36,240 nt of DNA from positions 1,193 through 37,432 of the forward strand of contig PKYW01000036.1 in NCBI GenBank assembly GCA_003132805.1, written 5' to 3'. Position numbers and translations under genes: made by a program. Under the pieces are notes generated by a model that saw only the letters and a program-made list of their open reading frames with translations, was not told where the DNA came from and did no database searches. This document shows, piece after piece, positions 4,811-36,240 of the stretch; position 1 is the stretch's first letter, and every line of letters begins with the position of its first letter. The DNA comes from Candidatus Dormiibacterota bacterium. GTDB lineage: Bacteria; Chloroflexota; Dormibacteria; Aeolococcales; Aeolococcaceae.

Positions 4811-4832
4811 TACTGCAGTATCGCAAGCGAGC

Positions 4833-5621
4833 TCACGGGCTCTCCTGGAGCCCGGCCGGACCTCCGGTGTACTCCAGGTCGCCATCGGTGCTGGTCCGAT
4901 CCACCGGGTAACCCTGTGGTGCCGGCACCGCCGGGACACCCTGAGCGATCGGGACGGCGAGTTCCAGAGGCCTGGCGGTGGCAAGCATCACCGCCGAGAT
5001 CGCACCACCCGGCGGGGTCACCACGAGGTCGGCGCCCAGCGCACTCCCGTAGACCGCGCAGAGATCCTCCTGGTCAGCCGTCCCGGTATCGCCCAGGATG
5101 AGGACCCGGCCGGTCGGATCGTCCACCGTCAGCGCGCACATCTGGCGAGCAGTGGCGAGGGCGATGAATCCGAGACAACGCCACGTGGCGCCTCCGAACG
5201 TCCACTCCCGGCCGTCCGCCTCGAGCACGTTGGCGCCGGCGCTCTCGAGAGCGGCGACGACGTCGTTGCCGCCGGCGTTCAGGCCACCGGGGGTCACCAC
5301 GGTGCCGACGGTGTAGTGGCCTGGGAGGCCGGCGAGCCCGTTCACCGCCGCCTCCTCGCCGCCGGTGACGACCACCATGTCGAGATGGGCGGTGGCAGGC
5401 GGCAACACCCGTCCCAGTGCGACAAGCAGCGCCGTCTGTGACGACCCGCCGTCGACCAGGATGCGGCTCCCGTCGCCGGTCTGAACCAACACCGCCGGTG
5501 ATGACCCCGTGTTGAGCACGGAGACATGCAGGCGGCCGTCGGGTCGCGACGCGATCACCCACGCGGCTGCAGCAACGACGGCGCCCGCGAGCAGGGAGAC
5601 GAGGACGGCGCGCCGGTTCAA
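4833..5621 (-). CDS. ComEC-type metallo-beta-lactamase domain protein with degenerate metal site
   Basis: This 262-residue protein corresponds to the C-terminal hydrolase domain that is fused to ComEC in most bacteria; here it is a separate gene. It opens with one hydrophobic segment (residues 5-24), then HVSVLNTG and ILVDGGSS (54-61), which match the family's first strands. The metal-binding loop, normally T-H-x-D-x-D-H, reads TGGEEAA at about 86-92, so the histidine/aspartate ligands are missing. GDTG near 170 matches a later family motif. The TTG at 5621 is chosen because it overlaps the comEC stop as TTGA and no ATG is nearby; a large in-frame upstream extension exists but lies over comEC. 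Nuclease activity is doubtful. Confidence 0.75.
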   Translation of the reverse strand: MNRRAVLVSLLAGAVVAAAAWVIASRPDGRLHVSVLNTGSSPAVLVQTGDGSRILVDGGSSQTALLVALGRVLPPATAHLDMVVVTGGEEAAVNGLAGLPGHYTVGTVVTPGGLNAGGNDVVAALESAGANVLEADGREWTFGGATWRCLGFIALATARQMCALTVDDPTGRVLILGDTGTADQEDLCAVYGSALGADLVVTPPGGAISAVMLATARPLELAVPIAQGVPAVPAPQGYPVDRTSTDGDLEYTGGPAGLQESP

Positions 5622-7114
5622 TGCAGCGGTGCTGTCCGGCGCGTCATGAACGCGAGCGTCCCCAGCATCGCCGCGACTCCGGCCGCTTCGGCAACCGTCC
5701 AGGCGGTGGGCCAGTTGCCGACCTGGATCGCCGCGCCGGGTATCGCCGACAGCGCCCGGGCAACCAACGTGATCGCCGACGTCCCGAGGCCGGTGACCTG
5801 AAGCAGAGCCCATCCGAGCGCAGGATTGAGCGCGCTCAGGGCGGCACCCGTTCCACCGATCACGATCATCGCGGGGAGCAAAGGAAGGACCAGTGCGTTG
5901 GCAACCGGGCCGGCGACCGAGATCACCCCGAACGTCCCCGCCATGATCGGCATCGTCGCCAATTGCGCGGCGACCGTCACGGCGAACGGCTCGGCGAGCA
6001 CCCGGGGTCCTGGGAGCCGCGTGGCGATGGGCCTGGCAAGCAGAAGGATTCCGGCGGTGCCGAGAAAGGAGAGCTGGAAGCCGGGGTCCTCGACCAGCTG
6101 CGGATCGAGTCCGAGCATGAGCGCCGCCGCGAGCGCCAGCATCGGTATGGGGTCGGTCCGTCTCGCGCCCGTAGACGCGAGCATCGCCGCGCCGGCCATC
6201 AGCGCGCTCCGGACGGCTGCAGGCCCAGCTCCGCTGACGAGCACGTATGCCGCAACCACCGGCAGCGCCACCAGCAGGGTTCGCCGTCTCGACCACTCGA
6301 AGCTTCGCCCCACTGCGCCGACCAGGCCGATGATCAGCACGACCTTCAGGCCGGAAACCACCACCACGTGGATCAGCCCGGCATCCTGGAGCGGCGCGCG
6401 CACGTCGGCAGACAGCGGTTCGTGGATGCCGAAGGCGATGCCCAGGACCAGCGCCGCAGCCGGCTCGGGAAGGGCGCCGTTGACTGCGGTGAGGAGTTGC
6501 TGCTGAGCCCAGGCGATCGCGCGAGCCGGCGAGGGACCACCGGCGGCGAGCACGAAGACCTGAGGGGACGTCGCCAGCGCCTCGACATCCTCGCGTTCGA
6601 GCGTGTCGGCCGAATCAGCACCCCGGCGCCTGTTCAGCGGTCGAAGACCTGCCGCGTCGACCTCGACCTGGTCCCCTGGCGAAAGCGCCGGAATCAGTGG
6701 CCCGCTCACCAGGATCCCTCCGGAGACCACCGCGTCGGTCTCGGCGTCCGACAGATGACGAGCGTCGATGATCGCCGTGGATCCATTCCCCGGATCCGCG
6801 CTTCGAACGGTCCCGACGATGACCAGCGGCCGCGCTCCGAAATGACCGCTTACCGAGCCGGGTCCTGGCACGACGACAACCGAGGCCCCACGCAGGACCC
6901 CGGCTGTCACTGCAGCGCCAACGAGGCCAACTGGTAAGAGGACCTGCGGGGCGACCGCGGCACAGATCACCAGGCACGCGGCCGCCCCGCACAGCAACGG
7001 GACCACGACATCGTCGGACAGCGAAGCGGCAAAGGCGACACCGCAGCTGACCGCGAACACTGCCCAGATGCATGATGCCCAGCGGCCTGCTCGGGAGCCC
7101 GCAAGGCGGTTCAC
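5618..7114 (-). CDS. comEC: ComEC/Rec2 competence membrane channel protein, hydrolase domain split off
   Basis: ComEC carries incoming single-stranded DNA across the cytoplasmic membrane during natural transformation. The 498-residue protein has two to three N-terminal membrane segments (about 10-75) and a soluble OB-like stretch (about 95-160). The multi-helix Competence domain fills the rest (LVLGIAFGIHEPLSADVRAP, then HVVVVSGLKVV at 249-259). The conserved SGLHV signature is SGLKV here. The protein ends right after the last helices; the hydrolase domain is encoded by the next gene through a TTGA overlap. The GTG at 7114 overlaps the comEA stop as GTGA, which settles the start against an upstream extension. 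Confidence 0.9.
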   Translation of the reverse strand: MNRLAGSRAGRWASCIWAVFAVSCGVAFAASLSDDVVVPLLCGAAACLVICAAVAPQVLLPVGLVGAAVTAGVLRGASVVVVPGPGSVSGHFGARPLVIVGTVRSADPGNGSTAIIDARHLSDAETDAVVSGGILVSGPLIPALSPGDQVEVDAAGLRPLNRRRGADSADTLEREDVEALATSPQVFVLAAGGPSPARAIAWAQQQLLTAVNGALPEPAAALVLGIAFGIHEPLSADVRAPLQDAGLIHVVVVSGLKVVLIIGLVGAVGRSFEWSRRRTLLVALPVVAAYVLVSGAGPAAVRSALMAGAAMLASTGARRTDPIPMLALAAALMLGLDPQLVEDPGFQLSFLGTAGILLLARPIATRLPGPRVLAEPFAVTVAAQLATMPIMAGTFGVISVAGPVANALVLPLLPAMIVIGGTGAALSALNPALGWALLQVTGLGTSAITLVARALSAIPGAAIQVGNWPTAWTVAEAAGVAAMLGTLAFMTRRTAPLH

Positions 7115-7686
7115 TGCTGAGGGAGCACGACCCGGAGGTAGTGCTCGAGGCCGGTGACCGTCGCCGAGTCGACGCCGAGGTCGGAGTGGAGCTGGCTCAT
7201 CGACGTGAACGGACCCCACTCGTCGCGATACTGGACGATCTCCTCGCCGAGTCCGGGCGGCATGCCCTGTACGGCATCGAGGTCTGCCTCCGCGGCCGTG
7301 TTGATATCCAGCTTCGCCGCGGTGGTCCCGGCCTTCAGGAATGGGACGTTGACCTGGCGGCCGTCATTCACCCGCTCGGCCATGTTGGGGAGATGACCAG
7401 GATCCGCGAGCGTGGTCACCCCGCCCGCGGCGGCGATCGCGTCGGCGACCCGCGCGTCGGGGCTCAGCTCGTACAGGCCGGGATGAGCGACAGCGCCGCT
7501 GACGAACACCAGGACCGTGGGCGGTGCGGGTGGATCGACCGTCTCGCCGGCGGGGACCGGTGCGGCGACCGCGGTCTGGTGCAAGACGGACCACCCCGCG
7601 GCCGCGGCGAGGACCAAGGCCACCGCGGCAGCGATCGCAATCCTCTGTGGACTTAGCCGTGGCGGTTTATTTGCATTAGACAACAT
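7111..7686 (-). CDS. comEA: ComEA-family DNA-binding protein (SLBB plus helix-hairpin-helix)
   Basis: ComEA is the membrane-anchored receptor that binds double-stranded DNA outside the cell and feeds it to ComEC. The 191 residues show a cytoplasmic N-terminus and one membrane anchor at about 15-33. An SLBB domain spans about 56-116 (VFVSGAVAHPGLYEL), and a C-terminal helix-hairpin-helix spans about 126-190, opening with LDINTAAEADLDAVQGMPPG. The second hairpin is degenerate compared with GIGPKK-type motifs. The ATG at 7686 has no Shine-Dalgarno but has TACACT exactly seven bases upstream, pointing to a leaderless transcript. It is the first gene of the comEA-comEC-hydrolase-holA unit. Confidence 0.92.
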   Translation of the reverse strand: MLSNANKPPRLSPQRIAIAAAVALVLAAAAGWSVLHQTAVAAPVPAGETVDPPAPPTVLVFVSGAVAHPGLYELSPDARVADAIAAAGGVTTLADPGHLPNMAERVNDGRQVNVPFLKAGTTAAKLDINTAAEADLDAVQGMPPGLGEEIVQYRDEWGPFTSMSQLHSDLGVDSATVTGLEHYLRVVLPQQ

Positions 7687-7693
7687 TCACGGA

Positions 7694-7722
7694 AGTGTAA
7701 CTACCGAACGTGCATCGATGCA
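7694..7722 (-). promoter_or_regulatory. Promoter of the comEA operon with a 12-bp palindrome
   Basis: TACACT (7699-7694, minus) is a good -10, seven bases before the comEA ATG. A perfect 12-bp palindrome, TGCATCGATGCA, occupies 7711-7722, where the -35 region would be (TTGCAT at 18-base spacing is a poor -35). It could be an operator or activator site. Role inferred. Confidence 0.4.
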
Positions 7723-7766
7723 AGGCGGTGGGGAGAATCAGCGAGCGAGGTCTGCGAACTTGTCGC

Positions 7767-8270
7767 TCAGAGCGAGCGAGGCGGCGTGGAGGGCAGGCGG
7801 TATCTGAGCTGTCCGTCGTCGCCGACCACCGTCGCCGCGCCGGCCCGCTCGGCAAGCCAGCGGACCGCGCGCCCGGACACCTGGTCACCGAGGACGCTCA
7901 ATTCCTTCGCGATCTCCGATGCCGACGCGGACCCGAGCTTGCCGATGGTCGCCAGCACGATATCGGGCGTCACCGATGCGGGTGTCGCCCTCCCCTTGGG
8001 GCCTTTCCCGCGCCGGCGGCTCTTGGCGTGCCGCGTGGCCGGCGCGGCAGTCCGTCGAGTCGTTCTCACCGGAGCCGCCGCGTCTCCCGCGCGATCGAAC
8101 AATGCGAGCGCTTCGCGGACCTCGCGACGGAGTGCGGCGTTGTCGGCCTTGAGCTCGGCGACCTGGCTCACGAGTGCCTCGATCCGCACCACCAGCCGTT
8201 CTGCCGCCTGCACGATTGGCGAACTCGTACCCGAGGCCGGGTCTCTGTCGAGGGCGGCTGCGTCGGGCAT
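7767..8270 (-). CDS. Small coiled-coil plus winged-helix-like protein, function unknown
   Basis: I do not recognise a named family in this 167-residue protein. Residues ~17-62 form a probable coiled coil (ERLVVRIEALVSQVAELKAD). A low-complexity basic linker (about 68-97, rich in Arg, Lys and Ala) follows. The C-terminal ~65 residues look like a winged helix: SASEIAKELSVLG, GRAVRWLAERAG, then the beta-wing DDGQLRYRL. A DNA-binding regulator or nucleoid-associated role is plausible. The start at 8270 is well supported by TAGGAGATTTC before the ATG; the frame extends further upstream, but that part runs into the tRNA gene region and is not needed. It lies upstream of comEA in the same direction with an 80-base gap. 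Confidence 0.7.
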   Translation of the reverse strand: MPDAAALDRDPASGTSSPIVQAAERLVVRIEALVSQVAELKADNAALRREVREALALFDRAGDAAAPVRTTRRTAAPATRHAKSRRRGKGPKGRATPASVTPDIVLATIGKLGSASASEIAKELSVLGDQVSGRAVRWLAERAGAATVVGDDGQLRYRLPSTPPRSL

Positions 8271-8448
8271 GAAATCTCCTATAGCCACGAGGTCTGCTGC
8301 AGTCGGCGCGATCAAATGTCGCACTGCTCCTGCGCAGTCATTGTCCGATACGGCGCGTCGAAGCCGCATTCGAGCTCGCTCAATCGACTGCAATCCTCCG
8401 AGGTCCGGCGCGCTCGCGGCGGCCGGCGTGCGCCCGGTACCATGACGC

Positions 8449-8521
8449 GGGGCCATAGCTCAGCTGGAAGAGCGCTTGCATGGCATGCAAGAGGTCGGGG
8501 GTTCGAGCCCCCCTGGCTCCA
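8449..8521 (+). tRNA. tRNA-Ala (anticodon GGC)
   Basis: A 73-base cloverleaf. The acceptor stem GGGGCCA pairs with TGGCTCC and includes one G-U pair. The D-arm is AGCTCAGCTGGAAGAGC. The anticodon stem CTTGC/GCAAG encloses loop ATGGCAT with anticodon GGC, and the T-arm is GGGGGTTCGAGCCCCC. The discriminator is A; CCA is not encoded. Confidence 0.97.
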
Positions 8522-8669
8522 CGGGGCTGCCCACATTGCGCCGATCCAGTCGATCGCGTCGTCTGAGCATCCCCCAGAAGGACGAATTCGTGGGTCGTTA
8601 GTCCCCCAACGGGGTGAAATCCGGGGCCGCGCGCAGCAGGGCCTGTTGCGAGCCGATATGATCCGGACG

Positions 8670-17461: not shown

Positions 17462-17534
17462 GGGGCGGTAGCTCAGCTGGGAGAGCGCTGCCCTCGCACG
17501 GCAGAGGTCAGGGGTTCGAATCCCCTCCGCTCCA
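17462..17534 (+). tRNA. tRNA-Ala (anticodon CGC)
   Basis: A 73-base cloverleaf. The acceptor GGGGCGG pairs with CCGCTCC and includes a G-U pair. The D-arm is AGCTCAGCTGGGAGAGC. The anticodon stem CTGCC/GGCAG has loop CTCGCAC and anticodon CGC. The T-arm is AGGGGTTCGAATCCCCT and the discriminator is A, without encoded CCA. It reads GCG codons, common in this GC-rich genome. Confidence 0.97.
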
Positions 17535-17560
17535 CCGCCGGACGTGCCACATGAGAACAG

Positions 17561-24776: not shown

Positions 24777-25793
24777 GTGAATCATTTCGAGGGCCGGACC
24801 ATCCTGCTGACGGGGGGCACCGGCTCCTTCGGCCAGCATTTCACGCGCACCGCGCTCGCGAAGTGGAATCCGGCGGCCATTCGCATCTTCAGCCGCGACG
24901 AGCTCAAGCAGACCGACATGGAGCGGAAGTTCGACGACCCTAGGCTCCGCTTCTTCATCGGTGACGTGCGCGATCGCGACCGGCTGCGCCGCGCCATCGA
25001 GGGCGCCGACGTGGTCATCCACGCCGCCGCGCTGAAACACGTGCCGGTCTGCGAGTACAACCCGTTCGAGGCGATCAAGACCAACATCCTCGGCACGCAG
25101 AACGTCGCCGAGGTGTGCCTCGATGCGGGCGTGCCTCGAGCCCTCGCCCTGAGCACGGACAAGGCGGTGAGCCCCGTGAACCTCTACGGCGCGACCAAGC
25201 TGTGCGCGGAGAAGCTCTTCGTCCAGGCGAACGTGTATGCGGGCAAGCACGCCACCCGCCTGTCGTGCGTCCGCTATGGCAACGTCGTCGGCTCCCGCGG
25301 GAGCGTCGTCCCGCTCTTCCGTGACCAGTCAGCCTCCGGCGCCGGTGAGCTCACCGTCACCGATGAGCGGATGACCCGATTCTGGATCACGCTCGACCAG
25401 GCGGTGCAGTTCGTCGCCGACTGCTTCATCGCCATGTCCGGCGGTGAGGTGTTCGTGCCGAAGATCCCTAGCACCAAGGTGCTGGATCTCGCAGAGGCGA
25501 TCGCTCCGGGACTGCCGATTCGCTACACGGGAATCCGTCCCGGCGAGAAGTTGCACGAATCGCTGATCACGCCCGAAGAGGCGCGCCACACGGTGGACAA
25601 GGGCTGGTGTTACGTCGTTGAGCCGGAACACGCCTTCTGGAGCCCGCTTGACACGAATGACGGCACGCCGGTTGCGGAGGACTTCGTCTACAGCAGCGAC
25701 CGCAACACGCAATGGCTTGACATCACCGAGCTCCGCGGGTTGCTCGCCACCGTGCCGCAAGCGGCCACGACGGTGCCGGCACCGGTCGGATGA
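24777..25793 (+). CDS. pseB: UDP-N-acetylglucosamine 4,6-dehydratase (inverting), PseB
   Basis: PseB starts pseudaminic acid synthesis by converting UDP-GlcNAc to the 4-keto-6-deoxy-L-arabino sugar, inverting C5. It has 338 residues: the NAD(P) motif GGTGSFGQ at 13-20, the PseB-specific IFSRDELKQTDM at 37-48, HAAALKHVPVCEYNP at 82-96 and STDKAVSPVNLYGATK at 126-141. Asp128, Lys129 and Tyr137 have the same spacing as the catalytic Asp-Lys-Tyr known in the Helicobacter enzyme. The GTG at 24777 is preceded by GAGGATCGACT. The stop overlaps pseC as ATGA. It is first in a six-gene operon. Confidence 0.95.
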   Translation: MNHFEGRTILLTGGTGSFGQHFTRTALAKWNPAAIRIFSRDELKQTDMERKFDDPRLRFFIGDVRDRDRLRRAIEGADVVIHAAALKHVPVCEYNPFEAIKTNILGTQNVAEVCLDAGVPRALALSTDKAVSPVNLYGATKLCAEKLFVQANVYAGKHATRLSCVRYGNVVGSRGSVVPLFRDQSASGAGELTVTDERMTRFWITLDQAVQFVADCFIAMSGGEVFVPKIPSTKVLDLAEAIAPGLPIRYTGIRPGEKLHESLITPEEARHTVDKGWCYVVEPEHAFWSPLDTNDGTPVAEDFVYSSDRNTQWLDITELRGLLATVPQAATTVPAPVG

Positions 25794-26992
25794 GCGTCAC
25801 CAGTCCGCCGGCGATCGCCGGCGGCACGCCGATACGAGTCCAGCCGCTCCCCTACGGCCGCCACCAGATTGATGAAGCCGACATCGCGGCGGTGGTCGCC
25901 GCGCTGCGCTCGGGGACGCTCACCGGTGGAGCGCTGATCGCCGACTTCGAGCACGCGCTCGCCGCCCGGTGCAAGGTCGAGCACGCCGTTGCTGTCGCCA
26001 ACGGCAGCGTTGCCCTCGATCTCGCGGTCCTTGCGCTCGGCATCGGACCCGGCGACGAGGTGATCACGACGCCGCTGACGTTTGTCGCGACCGCGAACGC
26101 GGTGCTGCGCACCGGTGCCGTCCCGGTGTTCGCGGATGTCGGCGAGGATCGCTGCCTCGACCCCGACTCGGTCGCGCGCGCGGTCACGCCGCGCACCAAG
26201 GCGGTGATCACGGTCGACTACTCAGGACTCCCGTCGGATGTTGCGGCGCTGAAAGCGGCGCTGCCACGGCCGCTTCCAGTGATCGCGGACAGCGCTCACT
26301 CGCTCGGCGCGTCGCTGGACGGCCGTCCGGTGGGAAGCCTGGCCGACATCACCACGCTCAGCTTTCACCCCGTGAAACAGATCACCACCGGTGAGGGCGG
26401 CGCGTGCCTGACCAGCGACGCCGATATCGCGGATCGCATTCGCAAGCTGCGCAACCACGGGATGACCAGCACCGCCGACGAGCGCACCGGCGGGCTCTGG
26501 AAATACGACGTCACCATGCTCGGCGACAACCACCGCATGACCGCCATTCAGGCCGCGCTCGGTATTTCGCAGCTGCGCCGCCTGGAGGGCGTTGTCGCCG
26601 AACGGAGCGAGATCGCCGACCGCTACGACGCGATCCTCATCGACCTTCCCGGCATTGGTCTTCCGCCTCGCCCGGCCGGCCGTCGCAGCGCCTGGCACAT
26701 CTATCCCATCGAGATCGACCCCGGTGCGTTCGGATGCGAGCGAGACTCGGTGATCGACGCGCTGCGAGCGGAGGGGATCGAGGCAACGCTGCATTACCCC
26801 GCGGTGCACCTCCTCACGCTGTACCGCGAGCGAGGCGGTGTCCCTCGGACGGTCCCGCAGGCCGAGCAGCTGTGCGATCGCCTGGTGACGCTGCCCCTCT
26901 ACCCCGCCATGACCGTCTCCGATCAGGACGACGTCGTGCTCGCCCTGCAGCGGATTCACGTGTGGGCGGCGGGCGGCGCGGTCAGGTCGTGA
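25790..26992 (+). CDS. pseC: UDP-4-amino-4,6-dideoxy-N-acetyl-beta-L-altrosamine transaminase, PseC
   Basis: PseC is a PLP-dependent aminotransferase (DegT/DnrJ/EryC1 family) that adds the 4-amino group to the PseB product using glutamate. Of 400 residues, the opening YGRHQIDEADIAAVVAALRS is typical. The PLP-binding Asp167-Ser-Ala-His170 stretch is present. The Schiff-base lysine is Lys196 in SFHPVKQITTGEGG, the PseC signature. KYDVTMLGDNHRMTAIQAAL and the C-terminal YPAVHLLTLYRERGG follow. Both ends overlap neighbours by four bases (ATGA, GTGA). It shares the family fold with other sugar aminotransferases; the PseC assignment relies on motif plus neighbours. Confidence 0.94.
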   Translation: MSVTSPPAIAGGTPIRVQPLPYGRHQIDEADIAAVVAALRSGTLTGGALIADFEHALAARCKVEHAVAVANGSVALDLAVLALGIGPGDEVITTPLTFVATANAVLRTGAVPVFADVGEDRCLDPDSVARAVTPRTKAVITVDYSGLPSDVAALKAALPRPLPVIADSAHSLGASLDGRPVGSLADITTLSFHPVKQITTGEGGACLTSDADIADRIRKLRNHGMTSTADERTGGLWKYDVTMLGDNHRMTAIQAALGISQLRRLEGVVAERSEIADRYDAILIDLPGIGLPPRPAGRRSAWHIYPIEIDPGAFGCERDSVIDALRAEGIEATLHYPAVHLLTLYRERGGVPRTVPQAEQLCDRLVTLPLYPAMTVSDQDDVVLALQRIHVWAAGGAVRS

Positions 26993-27975
26993 CCCCGCGG
27001 GCGTTGCTCGCCGCTGATTGCGGCCGGGGCGTCGGGCTGGGGCACCTCGAGCGGATGCTCGCGCTTGCCGATGCGCTCGATCCTGATGTGGATGTCTCGA
27101 TGCTGGTCCCGCAGGGGGACGTGGCGATCCGGCAGCGCGTCGTCGATCGAGGCCACGCGCCACTCGAGGCTTCGGGTGACACGCCGGCACGCGTGGCGGC
27201 GGTTGCAGGCGATTCGACGCCCTTCGATGTGGTCGTGCTTGACGGATACGTCTTCGATGTCGCCCTGCAGCACCGTCTTCGCGACCGCGCACCGTTGTCG
27301 GTTGTCGACGACCTCCGTCTCCCGACAGACTGCGACCTGGCGGTGAACCCGTCACCCGGCGGCGAAACGCTGCGACCCGAGGGCGCCGGCGGCTTTCTCG
27401 GCGGCGCGGACTACGCGCTCATCCGAGCGTCCGTTGTACAAGCGCGCGAGCTGGGACTGCGACGCGACCGCGACCCGAGGACTGTCCTGGTGTCGACTGG
27501 CGCAACCGATCCCGCCGGTCTCGGTCGCTCGGTGAGCCACTCCCTGCTGGAACGCGACCCCGACGTCAAGGTGACCCGGGTCGTCGGCCCTGACTCGCTC
27601 GACATCGCCGAGCGGGCGTGGGCGCGCGAGCAGCTGCTGCAAGCGCCGCCTGACCTCGCCGACGGTCTCGCGACGGCAACGGTCTACGTCGGCGCCGCGG
27701 GGACCACGGCGGTGCAGGCTGCATGCGTCGGGTGCCCCGCGGTGATCACGCCTGCGGTAAGCAACCAGGCAGCGCAAGCTGCGGCCCTCGAGGCCGCGGG
27801 CTGTGCCGTTGTGGTGGATGCGACGTACCTCGCAGACACGTGCCTTGCGCTCCTCGATGATCTGGCGCGGCGTGCGGAGATGGCGGTGCGCGGCCGCGCA
27901 CTCGTCGATGGATGCGGGGCTGCGAGAGTCGCTGATGCGATCCGGCACCTCGTCGCCGCTCGAGCTGCCTCATGA
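26989..27975 (+). CDS. pseG: UDP-2,4-diacetamido-2,4,6-trideoxy-beta-L-altropyranose hydrolase, PseG
   Basis: PseG removes UDP from the nucleotide sugar to free the six-carbon precursor that PseI condenses with phosphoenolpyruvate. The 328 residues have a GT-B-like fold. The N-terminal signature GRGVGLGHLERMLALADAL includes the catalytic His19 position. FDVVVLDGYVFD, LRLPTDCDLAVNPSP and the late AVSNQAAQAAALEAAGC are family features. The GTG at 26989 overlaps the pseC stop as GTGA; the longer open frame upstream is a shadow of pseC. The next gene overlaps as ATGA. Confidence 0.92.
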   Translation: MTPRALLAADCGRGVGLGHLERMLALADALDPDVDVSMLVPQGDVAIRQRVVDRGHAPLEASGDTPARVAAVAGDSTPFDVVVLDGYVFDVALQHRLRDRAPLSVVDDLRLPTDCDLAVNPSPGGETLRPEGAGGFLGGADYALIRASVVQARELGLRRDRDPRTVLVSTGATDPAGLGRSVSHSLLERDPDVKVTRVVGPDSLDIAERAWAREQLLQAPPDLADGLATATVYVGAAGTTAVQAACVGCPAVITPAVSNQAAQAAALEAAGCAVVVDATYLADTCLALLDDLARRAEMAVRGRALVDGCGAARVADAIRHLVAARAAS

Positions 27976-28727
27976 CCACGGTTGCCGTCATCCAGGCGCG
28001 GTGTGGATCGACACGCTTTCCTCGCAAGGTGCTGGCGCCACTCCAGGGCCGGCCGATGCTCGCTCACATCATTGAGCGGGTCTCGCGCGCAACCCTCGTC
28101 GACCGGGTCGTCGTCGCCACCACCGACGGCAGCATCGATGACGAGGTCGCGACCCTCGCGCGCGCGTTGGGTGCCGGCGTTACCCGGGGACCTGAGGACG
28201 ACGTGTTGACTCGCTATGTCTTGGCGGCACGCGAGCACGGCGCCGACGTCATCGTGCGCATCACCGCCGACTGTCCGCTGACCGATCCCGCAGTCGTCGA
28301 TTCCATCGTTCGTGCCCGCAGCGACCACGATTCAGACTATGCGAGCAACGTCGAGCCCCCAACATTTCCCGAGGGTTACGACTGTGAGGTGTTCACGTCC
28401 GCGTGTCTCGGACGTGTTGATCGTGAGGCGACACTTGCGTACGAGCGCGAGCATGTCACCGTGCGGGTCCGCGAGCACATGGATGACTTTCGCACCACCG
28501 GTGTCGCGCACGATCCGGATCTCTCGGGGATACGACTCACCGTCGACGTCCCGGCTGACCTCGACCGTGTGAGACGCCTGCTCGACACACTGCCGCTCTC
28601 GCCACCGCCCGATCTCGGCGCAGTCGTGGCGGCCTTCGAGGGCGACCCGCTCCTGCAGGATCAGAGCGGGCTGCCCTTGCGCAACGAGCGCTATCGCGCG
28701 CAACGCGAGGCCGCCCACCGCACATGA
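27972..28727 (+). CDS. pseF: Nonulosonic acid cytidylyltransferase, SpsF/PseF-type
   Basis: This protein should activate pseudaminic acid with CTP to CMP-pseudaminic acid. The 251 residues have the nucleotidyltransferase start AVIQARCGSTRFPRKVLAPL and VRITADCPLTDPAVVDSIV. PFPEGYDCEVF-like FPEGYDCEVFT and RLTVDVPADLDRVRR follow. The opening is closer to the SpsF (COG1861) branch found in Bacillus spore-coat sugar operons than to the classical PseF/NeuA opening (IPARGGSK). The symbol therefore describes the expected role rather than strict orthology. Its coupling to pseG (ATGA overlap) and to the flippase supports the role. Confidence 0.8.
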   Translation: MTTVAVIQARCGSTRFPRKVLAPLQGRPMLAHIIERVSRATLVDRVVVATTDGSIDDEVATLARALGAGVTRGPEDDVLTRYVLAAREHGADVIVRITADCPLTDPAVVDSIVRARSDHDSDYASNVEPPTFPEGYDCEVFTSACLGRVDREATLAYEREHVTVRVREHMDDFRTTGVAHDPDLSGIRLTVDVPADLDRVRRLLDTLPLSPPPDLGAVVAAFEGDPLLQDQSGLPLRNERYRAQREAAHRT

Positions 28728-30277
28728 GCGTTCCGGCCGCGCCGGTCGCGCACGGACGTCGCGTCTTCCGCAACACGCTGTTCACCGGCGTCGTCGGTGT
28801 GCTCTCACTGCTCGCCAACTTCTTCGTCATCGGCGAAGCGGTTCGCCGCCTGCACATGGGGCCGTACGGCGTGCTCACTCTGGCTCTGGCGTTCTCGTTG
28901 TCGGCGGGCTTTCTGAGTATCTCCGATCTCGGACTCCAGTCAGGCGTCACGCGTTTCATCGCGGACGCCGACGGGCGTGGTCAGCGCGGGCGGATCGGGG
29001 AAACCGTGAGCTCCGCGCTGGCGATCCTCTCTGGCGCGGGAGTGGTTGCTGCCGGCATCCTCCTCACACTCTCGGTGATCGCGAGTCACGTCTTCACGAA
29101 CGTCCACGGAGCCACCCTTCAGAACGATCTGCACCTGCTCTTCGTCCTGTTCGCTGCCGAGGCGTTGTTCGGGCTTCCAGCACTCGCTTTTCTCGGCGTC
29201 CTTCAGGGCCTGCAGCACTACGGCTGGATCAAGGTGATAGACCTGTCGCGACAGATCCTGTATACGGCGCTGGCGCTCTTCGTCCTGTTCACCGGACAGG
29301 GTGTTGTGGCCTTTGGTGCAGCCATGATCTCCGGGACGCTGTTCGCCGCCGTTGGCTACGCTGTCGCAGCACGAGTGCTCTGCCCTGATCTGCGCATCTC
29401 GCCGAAACTGATCAACCGCGCAGCGCTGCGGCCGCTCGCCGGTTTCAGTGCCTGGGTCTTCGTCACGCGGATCCTCGGCGTCATCTGGGCACAGATGGAC
29501 ACGCTGATCCTGTCGGTGCTCGTGGGGATCAACGTTCTCGCCGGCTACAGCGTCATCGCACGCCTCGAGTCGGCTGCATCGTATCCGCTGTCGTTGACGG
29601 CGGCTGCCGTCGTGCCCGCAGCTGCAAATCTCCTTGCGCTGGAATCGCGGGTCCGGCTCCGCGAGCTGCTGATTCGTGGCACGCGGTACACGCTCGCACT
29701 GTCGATGCCCGTGACGATCGCGGCGTTGGTCCTGGCTCGCCCATTGATCGTCGCCTGGGTCGGCCCGCAGTACGTCAGCTTCGCAGGACCGGCACAGCTG
29801 TTTCTCACCTACCAGCTGCTCTCCTGCACCGCCAATATTGCGCTGACCATCCTCATCGGGGTCGGGCGCATCCGCGCCGTAACCGCCATCGTCTCACTCG
29901 CCGTCGCCGTGAACCTCGTGGTCTCGATCGCGCTCGCGAAACCACTCGGGGTGACCGGCGTGATCATCGGGACCCTGATCGGGTATGGCATCACGGCGCC
30001 GCTCTACATCCGGCTTGTACTGGATGTGCTGTCGATGCGAATCGCAGAGTTCCTCAGTGGTGCGATCGCACCCATCCTTCCCTGGGCAGTGGTGTTCGGT
30101 GGTTGCGTCGCCCTCACCGCGCTGCTCGTCAACCCGGTGAGCCTTATCGCGGTGGCGCTCTGCTGCGTCCCTGCGAGCCTCATCTACATCGCCTGCGTGG
30201 TCCGCTTCTCGATGACCAGCGAGGAACGCACGGCATTGATCGGTTTCGTTCTTCCGGCGCGAAGGCAACACTCGTGA
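28724..30277 (+). CDS. Polysaccharide flippase (Wzx/PST, MATE-like superfamily)
   Basis: This multi-spanning membrane protein of 517 residues has about 14 hydrophobic helices. It would flip lipid-linked sugars across the cytoplasmic membrane. It shows the Wzx-type layout: an N-terminal amphipathic stretch (RRVFRNTLFTGVVGVLSLLA), then YGVLTLALAFSLSAGFLSI and DLGLQSGVTRFIAD at about 46-80. The central region contains MDTLILSVLVGINVLAGYSV. It begins by ATGA overlap with the cytidylyltransferase and ends by GTGA overlap with the glycosyltransferase-like gene, so export and sugar activation are made together. The substrate is inferred from the operon. Confidence 0.88.
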   Translation: MSVPAAPVAHGRRVFRNTLFTGVVGVLSLLANFFVIGEAVRRLHMGPYGVLTLALAFSLSAGFLSISDLGLQSGVTRFIADADGRGQRGRIGETVSSALAILSGAGVVAAGILLTLSVIASHVFTNVHGATLQNDLHLLFVLFAAEALFGLPALAFLGVLQGLQHYGWIKVIDLSRQILYTALALFVLFTGQGVVAFGAAMISGTLFAAVGYAVAARVLCPDLRISPKLINRAALRPLAGFSAWVFVTRILGVIWAQMDTLILSVLVGINVLAGYSVIARLESAASYPLSLTAAAVVPAAANLLALESRVRLRELLIRGTRYTLALSMPVTIAALVLARPLIVAWVGPQYVSFAGPAQLFLTYQLLSCTANIALTILIGVGRIRAVTAIVSLAVAVNLVVSIALAKPLGVTGVIIGTLIGYGITAPLYIRLVLDVLSMRIAEFLSGAIAPILPWAVVFGGCVALTALLVNPVSLIAVALCCVPASLIYIACVVRFSMTSEERTALIGFVLPARRQHS

Positions 30278-31641
30278 AGCGCGTACGCGTGCTGGCGCTT
30301 GACCACTACTTTGACCAGGACCTCCAGGCCCTCGAGGCGCACCCTCGCCTCGATGTGCGTCGGTTTCCCTACCAACGCCTGCGCGGTCCTGCCATTCGCA
30401 TGATGGGACAGCGCGTTGCCACTGGTGTCCGGGCATACAACGACCCGGCTATCGCCGTGGCACGCGACCGCTACACGGCCTGGCTCGCGCGAGAAATCCA
30501 GCGCCTGTACCTAGAATGGGCCTTCGACGTCCTGGTACTTCCCTCCGACACCTTTTTCTACGTCCGCACGATCCCGGACGCAACGCATCGACTGGGTCTC
30601 CCCGTAGTGGTGGTTCAGAAAGAGACAACCGTCTCACGGTCGACCATGGAGCAGTTCAGCAAGGAGATCGGCACCGAAGCGCCTTTCATCTCTGACTTCA
30701 TGACCGTGTGCAGCGAGCGGCAGCGCGAGTTCTGGATGCGCGCAGGCGCGGATCACGACCGCATTGACGTGACCGGACAGCCGCGGTTCGACATCTACGC
30801 GTCGAGCGCGCGCACACCGCGGTCCGGACGGCCGCGCATCCTGTTTCTCAGCTACGCGCTCGACGCGTACGTCCCCGGCGCCGGCCGGGGTCAGGGCCTG
30901 CTCACCTGGGAGCCGCTTCGCGACGCGACGGAGTCCGCGCTCGTGGAGCTCGCTCGTACGGGAGACTGCGAGGTCATCGTCAAGTGCCATCCTCAGCAGG
31001 ATCGCCGTGGCGTGGCCCAGCAGCTTGCCAACCTCGCGGGCGGCTCATGGCAGCGCAGTGTCAGCATCGCCGGCCAGGACGCGGACACCCGCGAGTTGAT
31101 CATCGCTGCTGATGTCGTCGTGGGATTTCAGACCACCGCACTGTATGAGGCTGTAGCGGCGCGACGGAAGGTGATCTATGCGGCCTGGGGTGAGGCGTAC
31201 GAGCGGTATCGAAGCGGTCTCATTCCCTTCCACGAGGCACCACAAGCGTGTGTCGCACACGCGGAGTCGCCGGAGATGCTCGTGGCGATGGTCACTGACA
31301 ACGCACCACCTCCCGCCGCGGGCTGCGAGTCATGGTATGCGGCGGCGCTCGGGTCCGTCGATGGTCACGCCACCGACCGCGTCGCTGACCGGCTTACCAT
31401 CGTTGCAGCCGAGTGGACCGCCACGGACGAGCGCCGCGCCTTGGACGTGCGCCGTCGCCGCTATGCGCTGGGCCTGCTCGCGCGCTCGCTGGCCGCGGAG
31501 GCCCTGTGGACTGCCGCCATCCCGGTCGCCCACCTCGCCGGCGAGCAGCGCAGGGTGGCGCTCAGAAGGCAGCGGGCGGGCGAGGGCCGGGCGATGGCGT
31601 CATCGACGCTCCGCCGCCAGGCGAGCCGCGACAGGGGCTGA
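30274..31641 (+). CDS. GT-B-like glycosyl/glycerophosphotransferase, putative
   Basis: The 455-residue protein has a GT-B-like two-domain pattern. The N-terminal half includes VVVVQKETTVSRSTM and SDFMTVCSERQREFWMRAG. The C-terminal half has VIVKCHPQQDRRG, recalling the KPHP stretch of CDP-glycerol glycerophosphotransferases. ELIIAADVVVGFQTTALYEA and RRKVIYAAWGEAYERY follow, as in surface-polysaccharide transferases. The last ~60 residues are Arg-rich and helical. The GTG at 30274 overlaps the flippase stop as GTGA; a 57-codon upstream extension is a shadow. As the only transferase in the operon, it may move the CMP-activated sugar to its acceptor; that is inference. Confidence 0.7.
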   Translation: MKRVRVLALDHYFDQDLQALEAHPRLDVRRFPYQRLRGPAIRMMGQRVATGVRAYNDPAIAVARDRYTAWLAREIQRLYLEWAFDVLVLPSDTFFYVRTIPDATHRLGLPVVVVQKETTVSRSTMEQFSKEIGTEAPFISDFMTVCSERQREFWMRAGADHDRIDVTGQPRFDIYASSARTPRSGRPRILFLSYALDAYVPGAGRGQGLLTWEPLRDATESALVELARTGDCEVIVKCHPQQDRRGVAQQLANLAGGSWQRSVSIAGQDADTRELIIAADVVVGFQTTALYEAVAARRKVIYAAWGEAYERYRSGLIPFHEAPQACVAHAESPEMLVAMVTDNAPPPAAGCESWYAAALGSVDGHATDRVADRLTIVAAEWTATDERRALDVRRRRYALGLLARSLAAEALWTAAIPVAHLAGEQRRVALRRQRAGEGRAMASSTLRRQASRDRG

Positions 31642-31658: not shown

Positions 31659-32744
31659 TCACTGATTGGGCCACTTCCGCCGCGTCCAGAAGACCTCGTG
31701 GTCGTCGTGGCCGATCGCCCACAGGAATCGTCGCGTGACATCTCCCACGACACCCGCGCGCTGCGAGAGCGCGGGGCGTGGTGCTCCTTTCGCGATGTCT
31801 CGAGCGATGTCCCGCGCGTCACTCGCGCTGACCGCGCCCTCGCGCACCGCCTGTTCAGTCAACCAGAACGCGAGGTCATAGAAGCAGTACATGCGCAGCA
31901 GGCACAGGTACGCCATCAGTTGGCGCTTCGACTGCAGTGCTGCCTGAACCAACGCCTCACGAACGTACAGCGCATCGCCGGCCACCAGTTCCGCGCTGAG
32001 CGCGGACGTCCCCGCAGCCGTGTGGAGGTACCTGCGCAGGAAGTGCATCGGCTGGTTGTTTGCGTTGCGATATGACCGGTGCGTACGGAGGTCAAGCAGG
32101 CGAAACCCCTGGTCTCGCATGAAGGCGTGCACGTCCCCGAACGTCGGCTGGCTCTTGTACAGCTCGAGGAATTCCACCTCGAGCTCGACGCACAACAGCC
32201 CTTCGAGCTGCGCCCGGCTGAGCGACGAGAGGATCTCGAGCTCGGTTCCCTGAGTGTCAAGTTTCATGAGATTCGGCATGGGCCTGCGATGCTCGGCAAG
32301 GAAGTCCGCGAATGACAGGCAGTCGACTTCGATGACCCGGCGCACGCCCGCATACGAACGCCCGCTGTACTCCAGGATCACCGGGTCATTGGGCGGATAG
32401 AGCGATGATCCGGTGGCCCGATTCAGCACGTAGAAGGTGCGCCGCCCCGTCGCACCCGCAAGCGCGACGGGAAACCAATGAAGGTTCGGCGGCGACTCGC
32501 GTTGCCGTCGCGCGCATTCCTCCGCATCCGGCTCGAAGCAGTCGACTTCGAGCACCGCCAGGTAGTCCCGCCAGTGTGGCGCGACGCCCCCGGCAGCGCC
32601 GACATCCATCGCGTGGATCGGTTCGTCCGCGAGTGTGGTCGCCAGGATACCGGACGGGTCGAGTGGATTCGGCCGGCGGCGAGCCCGATGCCGAGACTCT
32701 GAGAAGGCGCGCGCGAGTTTACGTGTGGAACTGCCCCTCGGCAC
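31659..32744 (-). CDS. FkbM-family SAM-dependent methyltransferase
   Basis: This protein probably O-methylates a sugar hydroxyl of the surface glycan. In the 361-residue chain, the SAM-binding motif I MDVGAAGGVAPHW is at about 46-58, followed by acidic motif II (VDCFEPD, 67-73). The FkbM signature LMKLDTQGTELEIL lies near 158-171. The C-terminal third (after ~220) is helical and longer than the core domain; its role is unclear. The GTG at 32744 lies 18 bases after the 662-residue gene, so it is the last gene of the minus-strand operon. It converges on the glycosyltransferase gene with only 17 bases between stops. Confidence 0.88.
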   Translation of the reverse strand: MPRGSSTRKLARAFSESRHRARRRPNPLDPSGILATTLADEPIHAMDVGAAGGVAPHWRDYLAVLEVDCFEPDAEECARRQRESPPNLHWFPVALAGATGRRTFYVLNRATGSSLYPPNDPVILEYSGRSYAGVRRVIEVDCLSFADFLAEHRRPMPNLMKLDTQGTELEILSSLSRAQLEGLLCVELEVEFLELYKSQPTFGDVHAFMRDQGFRLLDLRTHRSYRNANNQPMHFLRRYLHTAAGTSALSAELVAGDALYVREALVQAALQSKRQLMAYLCLLRMYCFYDLAFWLTEQAVREGAVSASDARDIARDIAKGAPRPALSQRAGVVGDVTRRFLWAIGHDDHEVFWTRRKWPNQ

Positions 32745-32762: not shown

Positions 32763-34751
32763 TCAGTATCCCCACATGTGCTGCAGCGAGACGCTGCCTG
32801 CCGTCGAGCATGTGAGGATCTGACAGTTCACGTCTGCATCGGCGCAGGTGACCAGGATGGTGCCGTAGCCGCCCGGACTGAGGAACGTCTCCATCCCATC
32901 GAAGAGCTCGTCGAGCCACACCACCTTGCCGGTGAAGGGCGCGAGCTCCACCTCGCCCGTCCGTGACTCGCCCGATGGTGCGTGCAGCTTGACCTTGACG
33001 GTCGCCTGTGCGGAGTGGTTGAGATTCCCCGCACCGTTCACAGCCAGGATCCCGGTGCGCAGCCCTCGAGCGGAACGTACGTGGCCGATGATGTTCGTCC
33101 GACCCACCACGCCCTTGGACGGGTGCAGCCAGTGCGGGAATCCGTCGATGGTGGCGTTGAGATTCCGCCAGCAACTCTGGAACTCAGTCACGTCGCGATC
33201 GCCGGTGCGCTTGTTGCGCACGACGAGGTTGCCGAACGCGTTCATGCGCTGGGGGTCGACGTTCATCGTCTTCCAGTCGGCGCTGATCAGAGCGAGCTTG
33301 GGGATGCGGCCGTCAGTGACCTCGTAGCCCGCAAGCAGCTCGTCCTTGTAGTGATATCCCTGTCTGCCAAGGCTGAGCTTGCGACGGTCGAGGAGCTTGC
33401 CATCAGCGTCGAAGAGAACGGCGACGAAATCGGCGATCTGTGGGTTCGCAGATTCGAAGGAGAATCCGAACTCGATCTCCGACGAGTCGTCGAGCAGCGG
33501 CAGGCCATGCGGCCAGAACAGGAACCCCTGCTGCTCCATAGCCTCGAGGAATTCCTTCTTGTCGTCAGCGAGCGGCGGACGGTGCTCGACCTGCGCGATG
33601 GTGACCTCATGGTTGCCGCGCAGCGACGGGCGGTTCTGCTGACCCGACCCGTCGTCAAATGCGAACCAGTACGAGGTGCCGTGTCCCTGGTAGCGGTAGC
33701 TCCAGAAGCCCGACTTTTCGCCATTGTCTGTGCTCTTGGGAACGCTGAGCTGCTCGATGGAGCGCGTGTCGTCGCGCTCGAACGATCCTTTCTGGTCGCC
33801 TCGGGTCCAGCGCAGCTCACTGTCAGACCCGCTGAGGCGGTGATCGTAGTTCGGCAGCGTGAGCACCACGCTCGCCGTGCTGAGGTCGCTCAGCGGAAGG
33901 CGCGATTCGCAGATGTGGTCGGGTCCGTAGTCATGCGCACCGTGCAGGCTGGTGAGTGAGTCCTTCCAGAACAGGTCGGCCCACACCCGCCATCGAGGGT
34001 GGCGGTTTCCGGTGAGCGCCGGGTGAGTCGTTCGTATCTCGATGACTGCGGTCCCTTCGCGCTCCGGCAGGAGGTCGTCGAGGGTGAAGTGCTCGGTCTG
34101 CTGGGGCAGCATGAGCAGGAAACGCTCGTGATGGCTGCGGCTATCGGTGCTGGTGACTCGAACGAGCAGGGGATCCTTGATCGGGAAGAAGTCGGCGAAA
34201 TGGTTGAACAGGTAGATGTCGCCCGCATCGACTTCGGCCGGGATCGGGATGGTCGAGCCGCAATATTCCCAACCCTGGCCAACCCAGAAGACCGGGGTCA
34301 CCGAACCACTGCGCTCCACCCACCGCAGCGCGTTCAGGTAGGCGGTCTTGACATCAGCACCGCCAACCACGACCGCATCGAAGCCCGCGATGTCGATGGC
34401 CGCGGGAAGCGCCGCACCGGCGAGGATGTCGCTGTCGCGGTGCGAGACCCACTCCCACTTGATGTCCGGCGTCGCGTCCCGCAGGGCATCGCGAAACTCC
34501 GTGTCGCTGTACACGATCCCGGTGCGGACAGCGCGTTCGCGAAGCTGTTTGACGACGTCGTTCAGATCCTGGTCGATCGACGCGATCTTTGGACGGGGAG
34601 CGCCTGACGGTGCCGCCGGAGCCTGCTGGGTGCGCTGCCGCCAGCGCTGCTTCAACTTCATCCCGAGGAGCCCGGGATCGGTGCGCAGGGTCGCGACGGC
34701 CTTGGCAACCTCGCTGCGAAGCGGTCTGGCAGACGACGATCGGGTACTCAT
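32763..34751 (-). CDS. Large unknown protein of the nonulosonic acid locus
   Basis: I do not recognise this 662-residue protein. There is no signal peptide or membrane helix. After a basic N-terminal arm (1-55), residues ~70-210 look alpha/beta and Rossmann- or GT-like (GFDAVVVGGADVKTAYLNAL; PVFWVGQGWEYCGSTIPIPA; NHFADFFPIKDPLLVRV). The remainder is rich in beta-strand, Trp, Tyr, His and Asp: HPRWRVWADLFWKDSLTSLH, GFWSYRYQGHGTSYWFAFDD and FEFGFSF-like EFGFSFES. A C-terminal domain is again beta-rich (LVTCADADVNCQILTCS). It lies between the pseH-like gene (61-base gap) and fkbM (18 bases). Roles as a sugar transferase, carbohydrate-binding protein or glycan-chain regulator are all open. ATG 34751 has GGGGG upstream. 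Confidence 0.75.
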   Translation of the reverse strand: MSTRSSSARPLRSEVAKAVATLRTDPGLLGMKLKQRWRQRTQQAPAAPSGAPRPKIASIDQDLNDVVKQLRERAVRTGIVYSDTEFRDALRDATPDIKWEWVSHRDSDILAGAALPAAIDIAGFDAVVVGGADVKTAYLNALRWVERSGSVTPVFWVGQGWEYCGSTIPIPAEVDAGDIYLFNHFADFFPIKDPLLVRVTSTDSRSHHERFLLMLPQQTEHFTLDDLLPEREGTAVIEIRTTHPALTGNRHPRWRVWADLFWKDSLTSLHGAHDYGPDHICESRLPLSDLSTASVVLTLPNYDHRLSGSDSELRWTRGDQKGSFERDDTRSIEQLSVPKSTDNGEKSGFWSYRYQGHGTSYWFAFDDGSGQQNRPSLRGNHEVTIAQVEHRPPLADDKKEFLEAMEQQGFLFWPHGLPLLDDSSEIEFGFSFESANPQIADFVAVLFDADGKLLDRRKLSLGRQGYHYKDELLAGYEVTDGRIPKLALISADWKTMNVDPQRMNAFGNLVVRNKRTGDRDVTEFQSCWRNLNATIDGFPHWLHPSKGVVGRTNIIGHVRSARGLRTGILAVNGAGNLNHSAQATVKVKLHAPSGESRTGEVELAPFTGKVVWLDELFDGMETFLSPGGYGTILVTCADADVNCQILTCSTAGSVSLQHMWGY

Positions 34752-34812: not shown

Positions 34813-35319
34813 TCACCGTTCTGCCCTGATCGTGCATTCGAGGACGGCGAATTCGCCCTCGTGGCGCGCCAGGCGATGGAACCCGGCTCGCTCGAACGCA
34901 CGAATCGAAGCGGTGTTCTCCGCGTGCGCCAGGGCTCGCAGGGTGGGGGCGTCGCCCAGGCGATTCATCTCAACGACCATGGCCACGAGGACCGCTGAGC
35001 CGAAGCCGCGCCCGCGCTGCGACGGAGCGATTGCGACCGACACCGTGCCAGTACCGTCGAGGACATCCACTCGTACCTGCCCCACGGCGTCGCCCGCCTG
35101 TTCTGCGATCCAGAGATGGGTGCTTGGATCCGCGAGGCGAGCTGAGAGCCACTCCCGATGCTCGCCCGGGGTGACCTGACGACCGCTGACGCTGAAGCGG
35201 ACGGCTTCGGGATCGTTCCGCCAGTCGAGCAGCCGGCCCGCGTCATCGGTCGTCGCCGGCCGCAGGGTGACCTCCGTCCTCTGGTGGCCGCCGGCGGTCA
35301 GCGAACCAGGTCGTCCCAT
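34813..35319 (-). CDS. pseH: GNAT acetyltransferase, PseH-like
   Basis: PseH acetylates the 4-amino group of UDP-4-amino-4,6-dideoxy-L-AltNAc with acetyl-CoA, the step between PseC and PseG. The 168-residue GNAT has LRPATTDDAGRLLDWRNDPE at 19-38, the WRNDPE element typical of PseH-like enzymes. The acetyl-CoA loop QRGRGFGSAV is at 101-110, and the closing ENTASIRAFERAGF is also present. The ATG at 35319 lies inside the end of pseI (22-base overlap). The first ~16 residues look non-conserved, so a later start is possible, but no good alternative codon was found. Related GNATs act on other amino sugars; position next to pseI supports PseH. Confidence 0.82.
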   Translation of the reverse strand: MGRPGSLTAGGHQRTEVTLRPATTDDAGRLLDWRNDPEAVRFSVSGRQVTPGEHREWLSARLADPSTHLWIAEQAGDAVGQVRVDVLDGTGTVSVAIAPSQRGRGFGSAVLVAMVVEMNRLGDAPTLRALAHAENTASIRAFERAGFHRLARHEGEFAVLECTIRAER

Positions 35320-36240
35320 TCGAGCACCTGGTCGGCAACCACGTCCACCGCAACATGCCGGCCCACCACCTGCTCGAGCGCATCCACTGGGATGCCGAAG
35401 CCCGGCCGCTTGACGGCCAGGTCCTCGCGGGTCAACACGCCCCCCGCGGGAACGTCACGCGCCGCAACGATGCTTCGCCGACCGAGCCGAAAGAGATTGG
35501 CTTCGGCGTCGGTGACGCGCTTCACGCTTGATCCCAAGGCCTCCTCGGTCTCGCGGATCGCCGTCACCATCTCGCGGAGCTCGCCAGGCTCGAGCGCGAA
35601 TGGATGGTCCGGCCCGATCTGATCCCGGCTGAGGGTGAAATGCTTCTCCACTGCGCAGGCGCCGAGCGTCACGGCAACCACGTCAGCCGTGTGACCGGGA
35701 GTGTGGTCCGACCACCCGATCGGGATCTGGAAGGCGCTGCGCAGCGTGGTGATCGCCCGAAGATTCAGGTCCTCGAAGCGCGGCGGATAGTTGACGGCAC
35801 AGTGCATGACCATCAGGTCGTGTGCCCCGGCCGCCGCCGCCGTGTCGAGGGCGCGTTCGATGTCGCCCAGCGACGCCATGCCGGTCGAGATGAGCAGTGG
35901 CTTGCCCGTGCGGGCCGCGTGCTCGATGAGCGGAAGGTGATTCACCTCATATGAGGCGATCTTGTACGCGGGCACTCCAACTGCTTCGAGCGCGTCAACA
36001 GCCGCCTCTTCGAACGGCGTCGAGAAGAACGCGATACCGCAGGACGCGGCATGCCGGGCGAGGTCCGCGTGCCATTCCCACGGGATCTCAACGCGCTTGA
36101 TCAAGTCCCAGACCGACTCGCGGTCGGAGACGAGTCCTTTTTCTTTCAGGTAGGAGATATCCGGGGTGCGACGCGAATACAGTCCTTCGGCGGTATATGT
36201 CTGGAACTTCACCGCGTCGGCGCCCGCCTCGGCGGCGACC
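35298..36240 (-). CDS. pseI: Pseudaminic acid synthase (NeuB family), N-terminus beyond window
   Basis: PseI condenses the 2,4-diacetamido sugar with phosphoenolpyruvate to make the nine-carbon acid. About 313 residues are visible, with the reading frame entering from the right edge as VAAEAGADAVKFQTYTAE; roughly 30-40 N-terminal residues are missing. The TIM barrel shows CGIAFFSTPFEEAAVDAL, AYKIASYEVNHLPLI, LISTGMASLGDIERAL, MHCAVNYPPRFEDLNL and GACAVEKHFTLSRDQIGPDH. The C-terminal SAF domain (RRSIVAARDVPAGGVLTRED through VVGRHVAVDVVAD) is complete. Family membership is certain. Pse rather than sialic or legionaminic specificity is taken from pseB, pseC and pseG nearby. Confidence 0.9.
   Translation of the reverse strand, partial: VAAEAGADAVKFQTYTAEGLYSRRTPDISYLKEKGLVSDRESVWDLIKRVEIPWEWHADLARHAASCGIAFFSTPFEEAAVDALEAVGVPAYKIASYEVNHLPLIEHAARTGKPLLISTGMASLGDIERALDTAAAAGAHDLMVMHCAVNYPPRFEDLNLRAITTLRSAFQIPIGWSDHTPGHTADVVAVTLGACAVEKHFTLSRDQIGPDHPFALEPGELREMVTAIRETEEALGSSVKRVTDAEANLFRLGRRSIVAARDVPAGGVLTREDLAVKRPGFGIPVDALEQVVGRHVAVDVVADQVLEWDDLVR

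Follow-up and report, generated by a model that had tools for sequence, protein, structure and literature searches.

Gene organization of the locus

The gene studied here lies at 32763-34751 on the minus strand of the window, the 36,240-nucleotide stretch of DNA analysed. It has 662 codons and encodes an uncharacterised protein of 662 aa from a soil bacterium, Candidatus Dormiibacterota, hereafter called the orphan. On the plus strand, a rightward gene series starts with PseB, an inverting UDP-GlcNAc 4,6-dehydratase (24777-25793; TIGR03589, 477.8 bits against a cut-off of 407.75). It continues with a PseC-like aminotransferase (25790-26992; 384 bits, cut-off 423.5), a PseG-like hydrolase (26983-27975; 108 bits, cut-off 153.55), a cytidylyltransferase in the PseF position (27972-28727; CTP_transf_3, E 7.8e-29), and a Wzx-type flippase (28724-30277; Pfam Polysacc_synt, E 6.2e-15). 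The last gene of the series encodes a glycosyltransferase-like (GT-like) protein (30274-31641), with weak similarity to BFO_1060-family glycosyltransferases, surface carbohydrate biosynthesis proteins, and Glyphos_transf.

This series converges on a leftward four-gene operon, PseI-GNAT-orphan-FkbM, in which the orphan is the third gene. The operon begins with a PseI/NeuB-type nonulosonic acid synthase (35298-36239, minus; NeuB E 8.2e-84, SAF; PseI 288 bits, cut-off 340), whose 5' end is missing because the window ends at the contig end. The second gene encodes a PseH-like GNAT N-acetyltransferase (34813-35319, minus; 41 bits against a PseH cut-off of 93). The fourth gene encodes an FkbM-family SAM methyltransferase of 361 aa (31659-32744, minus; Methyltransf_21 E 6.5e-16; TIGR01444 47.9 bits, above the cut-off). 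The GNAT and PseI genes overlap by 22 bp, the orphan begins 61 bp past the GNAT gene, and the FkbM gene follows 18 bp past the orphan. The placement of the orphan between pseH-like and fkbM genes of one operon, as described in the initial annotation, is thus correct. In the sister-species locus L002, the orphan start overlaps the preceding gene by ATGA. Two tRNA genes, tRNA-Ala (GGC) at 8449-8522 and tRNA-Ala (CGC) at 17462-17536, are also present in the window, and other RNA families are absent from it.

Homologues of PseB, PseC, PseF, PseG, PseH, and PseI occur together, as in a Pse-type locus. The sugar is assigned only as a pseudaminic-acid type, because PseC, PseG, PseI, the PseH-like GNAT, and the cytidylyltransferase score below the equivalog cut-offs. 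Neither this genome (G000) nor seven relatives yielded a flagellin gene; therefore, the glycan is probably a non-flagellar surface glycan, with the Wzx-type flippase as its exporter. Wzt and ABC-transporter genes were not seen in the locus.

Sequence features of the orphan

The open reading frame spans exactly 32763-34751, and the plus-strand translation of the same interval contains stops. The codon-position GC contents (0.64/0.46/0.82) are like those of the neighbouring genes. The L002 ortholog is identical at 560 of 662 residues (85%) over the full length, with a single 1-aa gap. Differences between the two genes fall mostly on third codon positions (73/47/252), with dN 0.099 and dS 0.78. 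The neighbour-like GC pattern and the third-position bias indicate a genuine gene, and, judged against this 85% identical ortholog, the orphan is under purifying selection. The 662-residue protein proposed in the initial annotation is therefore real.

The hydropathy scan of all 662 residues showed no transmembrane-like or hydrophobic stretch; the peak 19-residue value is 1.65, as for a soluble protein. Aromatic residues make up 9.1%. The description of a large, soluble, and aromatic-rich protein was borne out; "acidic-rich" applies beyond residue 50 (pI 5.5), but not to the first 50 residues, which are very basic (pI 12). The absence of a hydrophobic segment and the basic N-terminus suggest that the orphan may be cytosolic and able to dock on the membrane.

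Conservation peaks over the N-terminal 262 or so residues, and again in the C-terminal blocks 522-581 and 633-662. Residues 99-131, 154-175, 177-210, 238-262, 522-581, and 633-662 are unchanged between the two orthologs. Per 40-residue block, the identity is 90-97% at residues 81-280, versus 55-88% at 281-480. DxD triplets, which are common by chance, are kept in both orthologs at residues 60, 106, 518, and 638. The motif scan of the orphan found no GxSxG, GDS, or GxGxxG.

Family searches and distribution

The initial annotation had recognised no domain family, and the searches gave the same picture. Pfam was searched with the whole protein and with five fragments from both orthologs (E up to 10), and no meaningful match was obtained. 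No match was found in NCBIfam (E up to 0.1), and no significant match among the sequences of solved structures in the PDB (whole protein and two fragments). One PHROG match, to a family of unknown function, had a chance-level E of 0.04. By sequence, the orphan matches neither the glycosyltransferases (Pfam with whole protein and fragments, NCBIfam) nor the CBM or Wzt_C families (Pfam, whole and fragments). Membership of Asp2 or of the α/β-hydrolase acyltransferases was likewise not seen, with GxSxG, GDS, TIGR03712, and PF16929 all missing. Thus, a confident match to an unrelated family, which would have spoken against a glycan role, was looked for and none was found.

A pattern scan across 84,980 species genomes, sensitive to close relatives only, gave one relative. 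Among 110 genomes of the class, the HMM search detected the family in two, and in about 800 genomes sampled from the phylum no relative was found beyond the sister species. The orphan status of the protein thus applies to the class and phylum samples at the HMM level, and to other phyla at the level of the close-relative scan. The only relative found is L002, from the MAG palsa_851 of a sister species of Candidatus Dormiibacterota. It sits in the same locus, so that the sole homologue is not placed away from sugar genes. No relative was found by tblastn in the phage and plasmid collections, or in viral contigs. Other HMM matches in the class and phylum samples were dropped as partial and chance-level; the similarity of the best of them, L004, ends after a 34-residue stretch.

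Predicted structure

AlphaFold2 models were built from two near-identical sequences, and reached a pLDDT of 38 for the whole protein and 50 for residues 50-215. Both models have alternating helices and strands at about residues 55-160, and the whole-length model has many strands from residue 349 on, all at low confidence. The N-terminal part had been described as Rossmann/GT-like, followed by a β-rich remainder. This description holds as a low-confidence secondary structure only; the models are too poor for a fold assignment, which leaves "Rossmann/GT-like" unproven. Structure prediction followed by Foldseek, the check suggested for a glycan-related fold, gave the predicted α/β and strand-rich parts and no reliable fold match. 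The Foldseek matches (CBM22, neuropilin, oxalate decarboxylase, TrpA, and others) were dismissed, since the model confidence is too low; the query-normalised TM-scores of the CBM22 matches are near 0.1.

The variable slot between the GT-like and GNAT genes

The class was searched for PseI, and the loci of the genomes found were read. Between the GT-like and GNAT genes, G000 and G321 carry the orphan and FkbM, and FkbM occurs in the slot only alongside the orphan, in these two genomes. In G319 and G320, the slot is filled by the gene of an AAC(3)-like acetyltransferase together with that of a DUF4910/DUF2172 protein. The slot of G323 is empty. In G301, which belongs to another genus, the slot contains two strand-rich proteins without family and a weak Asp2/XcbB-CpsF-like protein. 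The orphan therefore occupies a variable slot of a Pse-type locus.

The cassette of G320 (L037:6982-9085) and G319 (L038:10977-13098), which encodes an AAC(3)-like N-acetyltransferase and a DUF4910/DUF2172/HTH_47 protein, is shared against the housekeeping-gene tree. The G301 slot pair (L041:6043-6897 and L041:6894-7820, both minus) encodes proteins of 284 and 308 aa, which are strand-rich by eye; neither matches Pfam, and convincing relatives were not found in the class. The two show a weak mutual similarity (z about 3.3), and the Asp2/XcbB-CpsF-like neighbour lies at L041 7863-8834. Homology between the C-terminal units of the orphan and the G301 slot proteins was not supported, as BLAST, hhalign, and shuffled local alignments stayed at background level. 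The supposed L041_4-like proteins of other Chloroflexota (L051-L056) are encoded among ordinary genes unrelated to glycans, and are probably chance matches.

Phylogenetic analysis of the probably exchanged block

In the trees of the housekeeping gene comEC and of PseB, PseC, and PseG, G000 pairs with G320. The support for this pairing is only 77/82 in the ComEC tree, where the genes of G321 and G319 are fragmented in their MAGs; the pairing is starred for PseB, PseC, and PseG. The alternative G000+G321 is rejected by AU tests for ComEC, PseB, PseC, and PseG (p 1e-6, 0.008, 0.0004, and 0.0007, respectively). The Wzx and PseI trees join G000 with G321, and AU tests for these two proteins speak against G000+G320, which they reject at p 1e-9 and 1e-35. 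These two-clade tests were picked after the identities had been seen, and the conflict concerns five species. The GT-like and GNAT proteins of G000 are 73% and 79% identical to those of G321, versus 62% and 56% to those of G320. A second pair behaves in the same manner: G319 and G320 share 92% (Wzx), 85% (GT), and 96% (PseI) identity, unlike ComEC and PseB/C/G, which join G319 with G323.

The sliding DNA identity between G000 and G320 shows a sharp, recombination-like break within the cytidylyltransferase gene, where it goes from 87% down to 61% near 28.3 kb; across 28000-28600, the identity to G321 holds at 71-81%. The right-hand break falls past the contig end. Within the exchanged block, type specificity is clearest for Wzx. 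In both pairs (G000/G321 and G319/G320), the slot content follows the Wzx/GT type, against the housekeeping-gene tree. The Wzx-GT-slot-GNAT-PseI block thus has a history distinct from that of the left half of the locus and of the housekeeping gene.

O-antigen-like type switching by recombination is established for polysaccharide loci in general. The trees argue for such a serotype-like exchange of cassettes between species at this locus, as recombinational type switching predicts.

Proposed role of the orphan

The strongest argument for an action of the orphan on, or together with, the glycan whose type the block determines is that the slot genes move with the Wzx/GT type of this exchanged block. 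The link to a nonulosonic-acid glycan proposed in the initial annotation is well supported in this respect, and the orphan very probably helps to modify or recognise an acidic, pseudaminic-acid-like surface sugar. The best explanation, with a probability of about one half, is that the orphan is a cytosolic accessory factor of a pseudaminic-type surface-glycan pathway, partnered with FkbM.

The mechanism might be as follows. An exchangeable, type-determining block (Wzx, glycosyltransferase, slot genes, GNAT, and NulO synthase) would include the orphan. The orphan and FkbM would work on the lipid-linked glycan at the inner membrane face, before Wzx flips it. The basic N-terminus may dock the orphan on the membrane, and the β-rich part may bind the glycan; the N-terminal α/β part might itself modify the glycan further, or hold the substrate in place for methylation. 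We infer the cytosolic location solely from the absence of a hydrophobic stretch, and the cooperation with FkbM from a pairing in two genomes. Membrane docking and glycan binding are putative as well; the sequence and structure searches yielded no fold, motif, or family that points to glycan binding or catalysis. A bolder reading is put forward tentatively, as less probable than not. In it, the orphan would represent a new family with an α/β domain and tandem β-sandwich modules, and with FkbM would be a type-defining modifier of a nonulosonic-acid glycan, spreading between Dormibacterota species by the serotype-like Wzx-GT-slot-GNAT-PseI exchange.

The orphan might instead be a transferase of a new family (glycosyl-, acyl-, or other), whose catalytic N-terminal α/β part adds a residue to the NulO glycan. 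The strong conservation of residues 81-280 relative to 281-480, the α/β secondary structure in both models, and the conserved DxD triplets, for all their frequency by chance, are consistent with such an enzyme. However, neither sequence nor Foldseek searches gave a GT-A or GT-B match, and the GxSxG, GDS, and GxGxxG motifs are missing. A GT-like protein is encoded next door, albeit with a weak BFO_1060-family match, so that the transfer of sugar does not have to fall to the orphan. This explanation is considered rather unlikely.

A non-catalytic cytosolic reader is less likely still. Its β-sandwich modules would recognise an end that FkbM has methyl-capped or modified in some other way, by analogy with the cap-recognising Wzt module of the WbdD system (PMC3482155). 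The accompanying FkbM methyltransferase in both genomes and the strand-rich prediction for the C-terminal half would fit this role. However, the locus has a Wzx-type flippase in place of Wzt or ABC-transporter genes, Wzt_C and carbohydrate-binding modules are not matched, and CBM22 matches to a model of such low confidence are no evidence. It is very improbable that the orphan is a passenger or recent acquisition with no glycan role, carried by exchange of the flanking genes: its distribution is extremely restricted, but it keeps the same operon position and is under purifying selection across two species at a dS of 0.78.

Comparison with known systems

In E. coli O9a, Wzt uses its carbohydrate-binding module to recognise chains that the kinase/methyltransferase WbdD has terminated (PMC3482155). 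The accessory-factor reading resembles this system as an idea only, in pairing a methyltransferase with a cytosolic, glycan-recognising β module; the orphan has no sequence match to it, and export is of the Wzx type here versus ABC export genes there. Enterobacterial flagellin glycosylation islands have common backbone genes, and modification enzymes that differ between strains, FkbM methyltransferases included (PMC4875605). The similarity lies in a shared sugar backbone whose modification genes, FkbM among them, can be interchanged. However, the present locus belongs to Dormibacterota, has no flagellin gene, varies across species, and has a large orphan as a cassette gene. The accessory Sec system includes Asp2, which O-acetylates glycans inside the cell (PMC5578698). 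A protein weakly similar to Asp2 and XcbB/CpsF fills the equivalent slot in G301, beside the two β-rich proteins, but the orphan matches neither family and lacks the GxSxG nucleophile motif. The G301 slot proteins, which look strand-rich by eye, share with the orphan the slot, the kind of locus, and the lack of a Pfam match, although a sequence relation is undetectable.

The cell surface of the uncultured Dormibacterota is poorly known. On the present evidence, species of one genus seem to switch the type of a pseudaminic-type glycan in an O-antigen-like manner, and the orphan family would be among the cassettes exchanged. Should the orphan prove to be a transferase or a glycan reader, it would represent a new family. 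The cassette pattern also offers a natural experiment for finding the functions of the slot genes.

Two further proteins, which are found again in the loci of several relatives, are encoded beside PseI there; in L002, their genes lie at 6520-8322 and 4253-6550 (minus). One, of 600 aa, has weak Capsule_synth similarity and is possibly another transferase. The other, of about 765 aa, has no family matches and looks as if it spans the membrane several times.
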